In this document: piece by piece, positions 30,242 to 56,919 of the stretch
Position numbering within the stretch: position 1 is the first letter of the stretch
Layout: every line of letters begins with the position of its first letter
Assembly (NCBI RefSeq): GCF_020514235.1
Contig: NZ_VTLB01000004.1
Location: forward strand, 62,001 to 126,000
Reading direction: 5' to 3'
Length of the DNA stretch: 64,000 nucleotides
Source of the DNA: Synechococcus sp. MU1617
GTDB taxonomy: Bacteria > Cyanobacteriota > Cyanobacteriia > PCC-6307 > Cyanobiaceae
Position numbers and translations under genes: made by a program
Notes under the pieces: generated by a model
Databases searched by the model: none
Told to the model about the DNA's origin: nothing
What the model saw: only the letters and a program-made list of their open reading frames with translations

Positions 30242-30736
30242 GTGAGTGAACCCACTCGTTCCAAGAGAAGTTTCCTCGGTTTCGTTGATGCTGGTGAGCG
30301 TGAAGTCGCCCGACTGCTCACCCTGATCACGGCTGTGGTGATCAGCGCCGCCATCATCAAGCTGATGATTTCCTTGGGCTCCAAGTTGCTGACTGGGTCA
30401 GCTGCAACGTGGTTGGGTGATGACCTGATCAAGATCCTCGGCGATCTCCTCACCGTTTTGATCGCACTGGAGGTGCTGCAAAACATCACCAGTTACCTCA
30501 GGCGCCACGTGGTGCAGATCGAACTTGTTCTGGTCACCGCGCTGACGGCAGTTGCTCGAAAGGTGATCGTGTTGCCCTCGGGCGCTGAAAACAAACCCCA
30601 ACTTCTGGTAGGCCTTGGCATCGCAGTCGTCTCACTTTCAGCCGCTTACTGGTTGGTGAAGCGTGCCAATGCCACTCCCTCCCGTAAGCGACTGGGACGG
30701 GGAGGATCAGCCACCAAGCTTGATTTCCCAGACTGA
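30242..30736 (+). CDS. psiE: PsiE-like phosphate-starvation-inducible membrane protein, GTG start
   Basis: 164 residues from the GTG at 30242. Four hydrophobic segments (LLTLITAVVISAAIIKLMISL, ILGDLLTVLIALEVLQNI, IELVLVTALTAVARKVIVL, LLVGLGIAVVSLSAAYWLV) with the PsiE-type Glu-Val-Leu-Gln motif in helix 2. PsiE is induced by phosphate limitation in other bacteria; the function is not known. It ends 10 nt before repeat copy A. Confidence 0.75.
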   Translation: MSEPTRSKRSFLGFVDAGEREVARLLTLITAVVISAAIIKLMISLGSKLLTGSAATWLGDDLIKILGDLLTVLIALEVLQNITSYLRRHVVQIELVLVTALTAVARKVIVLPSGAENKPQLLVGLGIAVVSLSAAYWLVKRANATPSRKRLGRGGSATKLDFPD

Positions 30737-30746
30737 GGTTTGACGA

Positions 30747-31211
30747 GCCGAAAGGAAGGCCGCCCTTCCAGGTGGAAAGACGGCCTAACTCGCTCGTTTG
30801 CGCATAGCAATCGACCTCAACTTCAGTGTCTGATGCCTTGGAAAATCTTCTCCAGCAATGGAACTGAGACAGGAAGGTCGAAGCGTCTGGCTCAAGGCAC
30901 CCTGGGGCCATCGGGTCCAGGTGTGAAGCGGCTCTCCTGCGGGGCACCTACGAACGATGCTGAGGGGAGTCGACTGGCTGGACGCTCTTCGTTGTCGCGC
31001 CAGACGAATCGCTTACGAATGGGTGGAAACTGTTGGAGCAGGGGCCAGAAAGTCAGTCTGCTTCTGGGGTTTGCTCAGGTGGAGTGTCTGCCGTCATGGG
31101 CTCCTCCGATCTCGATGCACTCACTCTCGTCAGCGATGAAGCCGGCGGCAATCAGCTGTCGTGCTCATTGCCTTTTTGGGCAAGTCCAACCCATGGTGGG
31201 AGTGGTGTGCC
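30747..31211 (+). repeat. ~470-nt dispersed repeat, copy A (possible structured RNA)
   Basis: Gene-free stretch between psiE and the leftward Nif11-cupin gene. It aligns along its length with 54943-55420 (copy B). Best block: 31032-31134 versus 55238-55341, about 93 of 100 positions by hand; a 27-nt block near 31147 is identical. The 5' edge carries an imperfect 13-bp hairpin (30757-30786) with a tetraloop. Open frames exist but differences between copies are not concentrated at third codon positions, so coding is unlikely. Orientation is arbitrary, set by the hairpin end. Confidence 0.75.
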
Positions 31212-54045: not shown

Positions 54046-54100
54046 TCACAGACCACCCATCAACACTGCCAACAAGGCCTGCTGCGCATGCAGGCGGTTT
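54046..54100 (-). pseudogene. argF: relic of the argF 3' end (last 17 codons plus stop)
   Basis: The minus strand encodes NRLHAQQALLAVLMGGL then TGA, exactly the C terminus of the intact argF at 55963. Five codons differ, all synonymously, and the stop is TGA instead of TAG; 7 of 54 nt differ. Homology stops abruptly one base beyond the Asn codon. The synonymous-only divergence means the two ends evolved as working genes before coming together, so it is a displaced, not a decayed, copy. Confidence 0.9.
54080..54100. repeat. direct repeat, left copy (possible att core)
   Basis: 21 nt beginning TGCTGCGCATGCAGG, identical to 55997-56017. Contains the near-palindrome CTGC-GCAT-GCAG. To the right the two copies are unrelated; to the left they stay homologous with scattered changes. 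This fits a recombination core. Confidence 0.7.
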
Positions 54101-54173
54101 GAAGGACTCATTACCTGGTATGGCAGCGGTTCTGCAGGTTGCTGCATCTCGGCAAGTAGCAAAGCAGAGCAAC

Positions 54174-54187
54174 TGAGGTCGACCTCA
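54174..54187. repeat. 14-bp perfect palindrome
   Basis: TGAGGTCGACCTCA is its own reverse complement. It lies in the gene-free sequence between the argF relic and repeat fragment C and could be a protein-binding site; no other evidence. Confidence 0.5.
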
Positions 54188-54255
54188 GAATCCTTGCACC
54201 CTCAGCCCGCGTGGAGAGGGAACCCGCTGTCTTTCGTGCCCAAACAACTGCAATG

Positions 54256-54303
54256 GAGCGCATTGCCTTCTGAGGTGAATCAGCCGATTGTGTGGCAGCT
54301 GTG
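54256..54303 (+). repeat. fragment C of the dispersed repeat (3' tail)
   Basis: The 35-nt block from 54261 (CATTGCCTTCTG onwards) matches the tail of copy B at about 55373 with four differences, including the GAATC-GCCGATTGTG palindromic part. Weaker similarity reaches back to about 54203. Only the 3' end of the repeat is present. Confidence 0.6.
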
Positions 54304-54319
54304 TTGATTGCTGGCCGTC

Positions 54320-54532
54320 ATGCGTCTCACCGCAGCTGAAAGGCGTTTTGCCCTCACTTCGTTTGCCGTCAAGGCGGCGATCTTTTGGATTGCTCAGTTG
54401 GTGATCTGTGTGTTGGACCCGCGGCGACTGGTGTGCGGCTTCGTGGAGAAGGGGTTTCTGCCCTGCCTAATTAGCTTCGCGGTGATGGATTTTCTGGTGA
54501 TCCCGCAGCTACGGCGTCGCTGGGACCGCTAA
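54320..54532 (+). CDS. small two-helix membrane protein in the argF-flanked segment
   Basis: 70 residues from ATG 54320 (TTG 54308 alternative). Two hydrophobic segments (SFAVKAAIFWIAQLVICVL and LPCLISFAVMDFLVIPQL) with a basic end (RRRWDR). No homologue recognised. It lies directly after repeat fragment C. Confidence 0.5.
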   Translation: MRLTAAERRFALTSFAVKAAIFWIAQLVICVLDPRRLVCGFVEKGFLPCLISFAVMDFLVIPQLRRRWDR

Positions 54533-54774
54533 CACCGTTGCCAAAACCAACCCATCACAGGCTGAGCATCCACTTGCAATGCAGGTGTGGAGGAGTGGGT
54601 TCAGCGCACGAGAGACGAGGCCATCCGTGAAGAGAGTTGAAAAGGGTTGCCCGTCAACTCGCCAAACAAGGGCGTGAGCCAGTATTGGCTTGATGCGACG
54701 AAAGCATGTCGCAAGGACGCAAAGCTCATCGGTGTGACCCACCAACCAATCAGCCCAACTGACTCTCCGAACTG
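54533..54774. other. gene-free stretch in the argF-flanked segment
   Basis: 242 nt between two small ORFs. I see no convincing coding frame on the plus strand. A minus-strand frame from 54924 to 54601 is open but antisense to the coiled-coil ORF and unconvincing. A TGCGAC / GTCGCA inverted repeat lies near 54696-54715. Confidence 0.4.
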
Positions 54775-54942
54775 ATGACTGAACCGTCGCAGCCCAGGGC
54801 GCTGACCTACACAGAAATGATGAATGGAGGCCGTCAGCAGCTCGAACATGAGGAACACATTCGTGAGCAGGAGCTGCAGCAGAGGCTCAATGAGCTTGAG
54901 CGCGATGTCGATCACTTGGAGCAAGCGCTTGAGGGCAGCTAG
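54775..54942 (+). CDS. 55-residue coiled-coil protein
   Basis: Short ORF from ATG 54775 to TAG 54942. After MTEPSQPRALTYTEMMNGGR the rest is one charged amphipathic helix (HEEHIREQELQQRLNELERD, then VDHLEQALEG) with leucines at heptad-like spacing, so a coiled coil or oligomerisation helix. No homologue recognised. It ends exactly where repeat copy B begins. Confidence 0.5.
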   Translation: MTEPSQPRALTYTEMMNGGRQQLEHEEHIREQELQQRLNELERDVDHLEQALEGS

Positions 54943-55425
54943 CCGCCAAAGAGGAAGGCCGCCCCTCCCGATGGAAAGACGGCCTAGCTCGCTCGTTTAT
55001 GCATTGCAGTCGACCTAATCAGTGAAGCTGTATCCGTGAAGCGAAGTGCTTATCGAAGGACAGTGAACTGAAAGAGAAAGGTCGAAGCGTCTGGCTAGTG
55101 GCAACCCTGGGGCCATTTTGTCCAGGTGTGAAGCGGGACTCCTACGGGGCACCTAGACGGACGGTGCAGAGGAGTGTCGACTGATCAGACGCACATCAGT
55201 GTCGTCACAGACGAGGCGCTCACGGTTGGGTTGAAAAGTTGGAGCAGGGGCCAGAAAAGTCAGGCTGCTTCTGCTGTTTGCTCAGGTGGAGTGTCGGCCG
55301 TCATGGGCTCCTCCGATCTCGATGCACACACTCTCGGCAGCCGTGGAGCACCCGGCAATCAGCTGTCGTGCTCATTGCCTTCTGGGGCGAATCGGCCGAT
55401 TGTGGGAACGGCGTGCTGTGCACAG
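54943..55425 (+). repeat. ~470-nt dispersed repeat, copy B (possible structured RNA)
   Basis: Gene-free stretch that aligns with copy A at 30747-31211. The 5' hairpin is at 54956-54985, with the loop changed from AGGT to CGAT and the stem mostly kept. Shared blocks include GGTCGAAGCGTCTGGCT, a CCTGG...CCAGG stem, and AGGTG...CACCT. The 3' tail holds a 12-bp palindrome AATCGGCCGATT and matches fragment C. An open frame runs through it into DUF427 but copy A does not support coding. Confidence 0.75.
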
Positions 55426-55962: not shown

Positions 55963-56919
55963 CTACAAACCACCCATCAACACCGCCAACAGAGCTTGCT
56001 GCGCATGCAGGCGGTTTTCCGCTTGATCAAAAATGCGGCTCGCCGTTCCTTCCATCACCTCAGCGCTGATTTCCTCACCGCGATGGGCCGGCAGGCAGTG
56101 CAAAACAATCGCATCGGCTGCCGCCTTGTCCATCAGGCCTTGATCCACACAGAAGCCAGCGAAGGCCTGCTCCCGCTGCGCCTGTTCGGCTTCCTGACCC
56201 ATGGAAGCCCAAACATCGGTATAGACGGCCTGGGCACCCGCCACCGCTTCACCTGGATCGCTCACCACCTCAATCGAGGCACCATGCTGCGCCAGGGATT
56301 GGGCCTGTTCAAGCACGCCCGGCAACGGCTCGAAGCCCTCAGGGCAGCCGATCCGCACATTCACCCCCAACAACGCACCGCAGAGCATCAAGGAATGAGC
56401 AACGTTGTTTCCATCACCCACATACGCCAGGGTCTGGCCGGCAAGCGCACCATGAGCTTCCTGCATGGTGAGGAAGTCCGCCAGGGCCTGGCAGGGATGC
56501 TCCAGATCGGTGAGGGCATTGATCACCGGCACCGAAGCCCAGTGGGCGTAGTCCACCAGTTCCTGCTGAGCGAAGGTGCGAATCGCCAGCACATCGCAGT
56601 AACGGCTGAGAACCCTGGCCGTGTCTTCAAGCGGCTCGCCGCGGCCGAGCTGGGTGACAGAAGGATTGAGATCCACCGTCTGGCCGCCGAGGCGGGCCAT
56701 GGCCACCTGAAAACTCACACGGGTTCGAGTGGAGGCCTTGCTGAAAATCAGACCCAGCACACGGTTACCGAGATCGATCCGACGATCGCCGCTCTTCAGT
56801 TGTGCGGCTAGGTCCAGCAACGCTGCTGTTTCCTCAGCCGAACAATCCGCTGAGGAGAGGAAGTCACGTCCGCACAGCGGAGACAGGACAGCAGCAACGC
56901 CCGCAGAAGCGGTAGCCAT
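55963..56919 (-). CDS. argF: ornithine carbamoyltransferase
   Basis: Condenses ornithine and carbamoyl phosphate to citrulline in arginine synthesis. 318 residues, full length. Carbamoyl-phosphate loop FSKASTRTRVSFQ, DLEHPCQALADFL and the ornithine motif VLHCLPAHRGEEI are present. The C-terminal 17 residues are duplicated at 54046-54100, so the 3' end of this gene was probably supplied by an incoming sequence. Confidence 0.96.
   Translation of the reverse strand: MATASAGVAAVLSPLCGRDFLSSADCSAEETAALLDLAAQLKSGDRRIDLGNRVLGLIFSKASTRTRVSFQVAMARLGGQTVDLNPSVTQLGRGEPLEDTARVLSRYCDVLAIRTFAQQELVDYAHWASVPVINALTDLEHPCQALADFLTMQEAHGALAGQTLAYVGDGNNVAHSLMLCGALLGVNVRIGCPEGFEPLPGVLEQAQSLAQHGASIEVVSDPGEAVAGAQAVYTDVWASMGQEAEQAQREQAFAGFCVDQGLMDKAAADAIVLHCLPAHRGEEISAEVMEGTASRIFDQAENRLHAQQALLAVLMGGL
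55997..56017. repeat. direct repeat, right copy (possible att core)
   Basis: Partner of 54080-54100, inside the argF coding region 11 to 18 codons before its stop. Identity is perfect over 21 nt and ends where the relic leaves argF homology. Confidence 0.7.

Follow-up and report, generated by a model that had tools for sequence, protein, structure and literature searches.

Two repeats in Synechococcus sp. MU1617 as probable Yfr103 RNA genes: conserved fold, exchangeable leaders and copying of the unit

Introduction

A stretch of 64,000 nucleotides of the Synechococcus sp. MU1617 genome (contig NZ_VTLB01000004.1, positions 62,001 to 126,000; hereafter the window) carries two long, similar sequences, A (30747-31211) and B (54943-55425), which raise the question of what kind of element they represent and how it came to lie there twice. 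The initial annotation described them as an end-to-end, noncoding repeat that might be a structured RNA or a non-autonomous mobile sequence. We find that they are very probably genes of the Yfr103 family. The family as such is already known; the edges of the unit, its copying and homogenisation, the leader types, the reading of an upstream palindrome as a terminator and a link to Yfr8 are added here. The alignment, the covariance model, the unit edges, the leader types, the Yfr8 link and the new reading of the palindrome make the element searchable and testable across the cyanobacterial family.

Repeats A and B and their relatives

When copy A was searched against the window with blastn (E <= 1e-3), it matched itself and copy B and nothing else. 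Copy B was matched at 54952-55416 with 79.4% identity over 470 nt (E 3e-108), confirming that the end-to-end repeat is real, and with both copies masked the top window match reached only E 0.29. The unit is about 460-470 bp long, and in the alignment of its two copies 361 of the 456 ungapped columns are identical (79.2%) while 11 columns hold gaps. The best 100-column block contains 93 identities, in agreement with the earlier estimate of about 93%, whereas the longest stretch without a mismatch measures 31 nt (A 31090, B 55297) and not the 27 nt first given. Each copy had been placed directly after a stop codon, and the units indeed start 4-13 bases past one, belonging in copy A to a PsiE-family gene that ends at 30736 and in copy B to a 55-aa ORF without Pfam match that ends at 54942. 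The features of both copies are listed in Table 1.

Table 1. Positions of the units and their parts in the window
Feature	Position	Strand	Basis
Copy A, whole unit, from the leftward terminator tail (probable) to the GGTGTGC end motif	30750..31210	+	nhmmer and BLAST edges, within a few bases
Copy A, imperfect palindrome (earlier "5' hairpin"), probable leftward terminator with minus-strand T-rich tail	30758..30785	-	
Copy A, CTCGCTCGTTT block, in the putative promoter stretch	30789..30799	+	alignment consensus; role inferred
Copy A, 5' leader, type A	30814..30875	+	predicted +1 at 30814, placed by the palindrome's reported location at -58..-29 (PMC5069720, available part)
Copy A, structured RNA core	30876..31172	+	R1 279.4 bits; covariation
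Copy A, terminal hairpin GGCAAT..ATTGCC, then TTTTT	31147-31172	+	z -3.24
Copy B, whole unit	54947..55416	+	99.1% over 470 bp to the G000:C1:488k copy, flanks unrelated
Copy B, imperfect palindrome, probable leftward terminator; 13 pairs, tail TCCTCTTTGG	54957..54984	-	
Copy B, 5' leader, type B	55013..55079	+	predicted +1 at 55013
Copy B, structured RNA core	55080..55379	+	R1 279.8 bits
Copy B, terminal hairpin	55354-55379	+	z -1.74
Remnant, 3' end of a further copy	54244..54299	+	nhmmer E 1.9e-5

The description as a two-copy repeat proved too narrow. The source genome (2.32 Mb in ten contigs) contains five full copies and one degenerate copy, besides a 3' remnant of 56 nt. Blastn located A, B, C1:488280-488744, C6:6048-6386 and, in two pieces, C1:393488-393822, while the degenerate copy (G000:C1:217395-217552) was detected with a covariance model. 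Across 59 genomes, the source genome included, 34 gave a blastn match, namely 33 of the 34 from the same genus, one of the two from other genera of the family and none of the 23 from other families. The covariance model, R1, which has 296 positions, revealed many additional homologues: it was positive in 210 of the 222 family genomes that are at least 95% complete, covering 30 of the 31 genera. In a class-wide sample 51 of 289 genomes were positive, all 51 from the same family, although the strict R1 filters may miss weak relatives outside it. Copy numbers per genome from the R1 surveys are lower bounds, with no more than eight candidates scored per genome in the family-wide survey and six in the class-wide one. 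Three tandem copies of the unit with identical scores are spaced at 450 bp in G129 (L358 934-2131).

A 17-nt core pattern was found in 87 stretches of the genome contigs, a good part of which occur by chance in unrelated bacteria and were not confirmed by the profile. Profile-confirmed, Synechococcus-like copies lie on L107, labelled Rubripirellula, and L153, labelled as a proteobacterium; both contigs are probably mis-binned. The CTCGCTCGTTT block is near-invariant within the genus according to the alignment consensus. At the other end of the unit, the motif GGYRTGC (31204-31210 in copy A) follows the terminal hairpin at a distance of 38-39 nt in 52 of 85 genus copies; of 2000 stretches of 75 nt drawn at random from the window, 32 contain it.

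A structured RNA core

For the analysis of the core, 81 sequences below 90% identity were collected, and 48 of these together with A and B formed the alignment A2 (50 rows). Pairs were counted on a fold obtained with RNAalifold and RIBOSUM scoring from the gap-trimmed A2, which leans towards these sequences. On this fold of 75 pairs, 88.4% of the cells pair, a value biased upward as the fold was derived from the sequences tested, and pairing falls to 37-43% of cells when the partners are slid by 1-3 columns. The double changes are the better evidence: they affect 28 pairs and 119 cells, compared with 15.8 pairs and 41.8 +/- 6.7 cells in shuffles, which ignore relatedness, and none of 500 shuffles reached any of the measures. 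The ~300-nt core is thus strongly supported as a structured RNA, the first of the two readings initially proposed. An alternative consensus fold of A2 was weak (-14.1 kcal/mol, 24 pairs).

The architecture consists of a long-range closing stem, GAAGC/GCUUC, extended by CUG/CAG; an inner stem in which the invariant CCUG-GGG-CC faces GG-AG-CAGG; a multiloop bearing hairpins; GGUGGAG..CUCC as a domain of its own; and the terminal hairpin. Two helices are invariant or nearly so and hence carry no evidence from covariation. The internal CCTGG/CCAGG and AGGTG/CACCT pairs pointed out earlier do not form part of the tested fold, and several of these columns are invariant, so that covariation cannot decide there. 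The terminal hairpin of copy A is more stable than all 200 shuffles; in copy B the tail that follows it is weak. We considered and rejected the possibility that the core is transcribed from the minus strand, which can adopt a fold of similar energy (-107.4 versus -113.4), as the wobble cells favour the plus strand (278 G.U versus 126 A.C).

In the cores of L166, L308, L310, L312, L316, L317, L171 and L355, all probably from Prochlorococcus, one hairpin loop contains an inserted block, CACCTAAATCATTGATCCTTG, which the very divergent L355 copy keeps with one change.

Probable identity with Yfr103

Genome G029, which we take to be Synechococcus CC9605, contains seven full copies, and the family-wide R1 search gave at least eight matches there. 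The palindromes of its copies are 28-30 nt long, with one of the seven off-pattern. According to the available part of PMC5069720, Synechococcus CC9605 has seven paralogous ncRNAs of the Yfr103 family, 290-328 nt in length, which together make up 55.2% of its mdRNA-Seq reads. By the same account the family is that of Prochlorococcus MIT9313, nine further strains of Synechococcus and five of Prochlorococcus have homologues, the fold is conserved, and an imperfect palindrome occupies -58 to -29 relative to the start (PMC5069720). In our collection WH7803 carries a copy, as do named Prochlorococcus records such as MIT 0701, and the palindrome sits at the left edge of the unit, on the side and in the orientation that fit Yfr103 relative to a start position that is itself predicted. 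From this start to the end of the hairpin, the RNA would be 359 nt long in copy A and 367 nt in copy B; a short-leader copy gives 323 nt, and the four other copies measured, A and B included, fall at 357-367 nt.

We consider it very likely that the repeats are Yfr103 genes, on a comparison by published description and by the presumed identity of G029 and not by sequence. What appears to be shared is a multi-copy picocyanobacterial ncRNA of about 300 nt with a conserved fold, a palindrome of about 30 nt upstream and overlapping hosts (PMC5069720, as far as available); the predicted lengths of A and B, in contrast, exceed the published 290-328 nt. The sharp-edged duplication, the leader types, the homogenisation and the leftward palindrome come from the present analysis and are absent from the part of the PMC5069720 account available to us. 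If the repeats are Yfr103, paralogues that produce more than half of the CC9605 reads lack both a functional explanation, to judge from the same part, and an Rfam family.

Rfam release 15 holds no family that matches the element, catalytic introns included. At gathering scores the window yielded two tRNAs only. Copy B at E <= 5 gave miRNA and thermoregulator models at chance level, far below their gathering scores, and eight copy-bearing loci at E <= 0.05 gave only a neighbouring glutamine-II riboswitch. This riboswitch (L045 1052-1111) lies about 180 nt upstream of a G006 copy.

A proposed dose-acting RNA with exchangeable leaders

The reading that we favour, and regard as likely, is that A and B are Yfr103 genes built as self-contained transcription units, that their RNA acts by dose as a platform for protein, and that the copies are spread and homogenised by recombination. 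Each unit would comprise, in this order, a leftward terminator, a short promoter stretch, an exchangeable 5' leader, the ~300-nt core and the terminal hairpin; a search of units A and B for a sigma-70-type promoter found none. Several genomic copies would jointly yield one very abundant RNA, whose core would fold into a compact platform that most likely serves to sequester or scaffold a protein partner, and the leaders would distinguish the paralogues. Copies would be gained, lost and made alike through recombination and gene conversion between units. Protein binding, the dose logic and recombination as the sole copying mechanism are our best guess.

The guess of a dose-dependent protein platform is made because the RNA is abundant in the published data, is encoded in multiple, homogenised copies and has no conserved open seed. 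A platform is favoured over an RNA that pairs through a common seed because, of the 84 columns conserved in at least 95% of the 50 rows, 65 lie inside helices, and the longest conserved unpaired run is at most 3 bases. 6S RNA and CsrB/RsmZ are abundant structured RNAs that act by dose via a protein. The likeness to them would be an analogy of action only; Rfam gave no match here.

The leader, which is situated between the CTCGCTCGTTT block and the core, is between 33 and about 166 nt long and falls into a few recurrent types; in this survey 1 of 90 copies was off-pattern, and some leaders thereby include a second, solo palindrome. Two genomes, G006 and G014, combine nearly identical cores with different leader types. 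This combination, together with a core that offers no conserved open seed, would fit a base-pairing regulatory RNA in which the exchangeable leader of each paralogue selects the targets and the core only stabilises the molecule. We regard this as unlikely, since leader types recur between species and are not highly diverse, and pairing would presumably not need such abundance.

The upstream palindrome and a probable link to Yfr8

The palindrome, introduced in the initial annotation as a 5' hairpin of the repeat, sits upstream of the predicted RNA start. Read on the plus strand, it is imperfect and gains no stability over shuffles (z -0.21 and 0.33, for folded stretches one base short of the full stem). 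A sequence pattern caught 29 distinct palindromes. In these, G.U pairing is exclusive to the minus strand at 68 position pairs and to the plus strand at 7, and 10 are mismatched on both; counted by sequence, 25 lean to the minus strand and 3 to the plus strand, with one tie. Because the wobble pairs fall mainly on the minus strand (68 versus 7), the palindrome looks like a leftward terminator. That the hairpin keeps its stem was correctly seen, but its plus-strand reading did not hold, the C.A mismatches being G.U pairs on the minus strand.

The palindrome of copy B passes a minus-strand terminator scan with the tail TCCTCTTTGG, for which shuffles average 0.5 such sites, whereas that of copy A fails the simple scan. 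Upstream sequence sufficed in 70 of 81 non-redundant copies, and the other 11 were dropped. Of these 70, 28 have a leftward terminator-like site in the 190 nt upstream and 2 have one in an adjoining control stretch; the corresponding numbers for rightward sites are 6 and 2. The tail of the hairpin falls at the left edge of the shared unit; other genera have a hairpin of unrelated sequence in a similar position. A site for a transcription factor has been suggested for the upstream palindrome (PMC5069720, available part); the wobble bias towards the minus strand argues for an RNA hairpin instead. The upstream hairpin is thus a probable leftward terminator at the edge of the unit.

In one genome, which we take to be a high-light Prochlorococcus, R1 matches a 113-nt stretch (34.3 bits) that overlaps Rfam Yfr8 on the same strand and ends within 10 nt of the end of a 290-nt Yfr8, an overlap checked in this one genome. 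A second locus of 256 nt in the same genome (79.2 bits) has no Rfam match. The Yfr8 model (RF02360) itself gave no match on the window at its gathering score or on copy B at E <= 5. Yfr8 (RF02360; PMC2518516, available part) resembles the element in its 3' part, which R1 matches on the same strand, in its 290-nt form and in an inverted repeat upstream, and differs in its 5' half, which R1 leaves unmatched. In high-light Prochlorococcus, Yfr8 appears to be a degenerate relative.

In MED4, Yfr9 runs antisense to Yfr8, with its end 65 nt ahead of where Yfr8 starts (Table 1 of PMC2518516), and it rises early in phage infection (PMC2518516, from the part available). By analogy, the unit may form a sense/antisense pair in which an antisense RNA arrives from the right and is stopped by the leftward terminator, an arrangement compatible with a protein platform. 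It would agree with the hairpin and T-rich tail read leftward, with the excess of leftward sites over the control, with the Yfr8 overlap, and with the tail of copy A, which ends about 64 nt before its predicted start, compared with 65 nt for MED4 Yfr9 (PMC2518516, same part). It is nevertheless rather improbable: the part of PMC5069720 at hand mentions no Yfr103 antisense transcript, a minus-strand promoter was not found in unit A or B, and a plain barrier against read-through, or the published transcription-factor site, would explain the palindrome too.

The same features could be combined into a modular, insulated cassette with a constant core, swappable leaders and a terminator that ends an antisense partner, in which recombination spreads and homogenises the units and inserts or removes the genes between them, as at copy B. 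If this were true, an RNA among the most abundant in oceanic picocyanobacteria would be a dose-tuned regulator and at the same time a joint for genome rearrangement. We offer this only as a tentative possibility beside the dose-acting platform described above.

Copying and homogenisation of the unit

Over 470 bp, copy B shares 99.1% identity with the C1:488k copy, and the flanks of the two are unrelated. Within-genome pairs that are 96-100% alike also occur in G003, G006, G009, G014, G026, G029 and G032. Core pairs of 99-100% identity with unrelated flanks are present in seven genomes, and a further pair in G029 shares one flank; homology continues past the unit on one side in some pairs of G029, G021, G006 and G014.

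Site A lies between two convergent genes, and the unit is found there in 13 of 29 genomes, the source genome included. Both flanking genes were recovered in 27 genomes. In 12 of these the unit is present and the genes are 456-859 nt apart, while in the 15 without it they meet and, by the reading of their stop codons, overlap. The C1:488k site is old, with similar flanks and a copy in G031, G019 and others; its copy in the source genome (L038) is 98% identical to copy B, compared with 94% and 92% to its positional orthologues. Among 22 genomes with at least two collected copies, 9 have a within-genome pair closer than any collected copy elsewhere. Homogenisation is patchy, because the other 13 lack such a pair. 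Concerted evolution of rRNA and tRNA genes is similar in that paralogues are more alike within than between genomes (PMC6053082, PMC5745555, in their available parts); unlike those genes, Yfr103-type copies have cores that are alike and leaders of different types.

The locus of copy B was compared with G031, in which the left part of a single stretch corresponds to window 54150-54292 (90% over 145 nt, the remnant included) and the right part to the 3' end of copy B and its flank (90% over 83 nt). The ~1.1 kb in between (window 54293-55370), which comprises a 74-aa ORF, the 55-aa ORF and most of copy B, is bracketed by two unit 3' ends in the window and absent in G031, where one unit 3' end lies between the outer flanks of copy B. 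From the sequences compared, these ~1.1 kb look like a gain or loss via recombination between two unit 3' ends, for which no transposase would be needed. The 74-aa ORF adjoins full copies in other genomes. A fresh insertion of copy B at an empty site was rejected, as G031 keeps the 3' end of a copy there and G026 has one about 340 nt upstream. None of 15 other matches to the neighbouring gene of copy B has a full copy in the position of B; in G023 and G020 full copies are located about 0.9 kb away on the other side of this gene.

Window 54048-54100 and 55965-56017 form a 53-nt repeat with 91% identity. The second of these is located at the 3' end of an ORF on the minus strand that presumably resembles ornithine carbamoyltransferase, and the scrap of that ORF's end upstream of the remnant may be another scar of rearrangement around copy B.

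The second initial reading, a non-autonomous mobile sequence, has to be weighed against these observations. A selfish element moved in trans by an enzyme, with the fold as its own replication or transposition signal, could account for the near-identical, sharp-edged pairs in unrelated flanks, the presence/absence polymorphism at site A and the tandem copies. At the edges of 12 paralogue pairs, however, neither terminal inverted repeats nor target duplications nor a transposase, as would mark a MITE or IS200/605-like element, were seen by eye, and the locus of copy B is accounted for by recombination between 3' ends. Copies also persist at the same site across species, as in the 13 genomes at site A, and the fold is kept throughout all but one of the genera. 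The phage and plasmid collections gave no match to copy B; a phage or plasmid origin was likewise rejected, three viral contigs with the 17-nt core pattern lacking the element by both profile and covariance model. The sharp edges that would suit a mobile element are real, but copy B resembles a product of homologous recombination, and we consider a selfish element distinctly improbable compared with units spread by recombination.

On L359 (G111:C1:413500-428500), two direct copies with equal scores lie 10.9 kb apart; the genes enclosed by them carry domains of the alternative oxidase, arsR, GAPDH, MFS and periplasmic-binding-protein types. Copy pairs at similar spacing occur in several genomes related to G111, and the L359 pair may possibly represent the recombination joints of an island.

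Coding potential

The earlier statement that the repeat does not look protein-coding was borne out by the reading frames. In 50 diverse cores, the median of the longest stop-free run is 39.5-56 codons across all six frames, and core lengths span 266-321 nt, differing by numbers of nucleotides not divisible by three. The double changes, moreover, preserve base pairs. A protein-coding repeat is therefore hardly conceivable, even though 14 of the 50 cores, copy A included, have some frame open over at least 95 codons.
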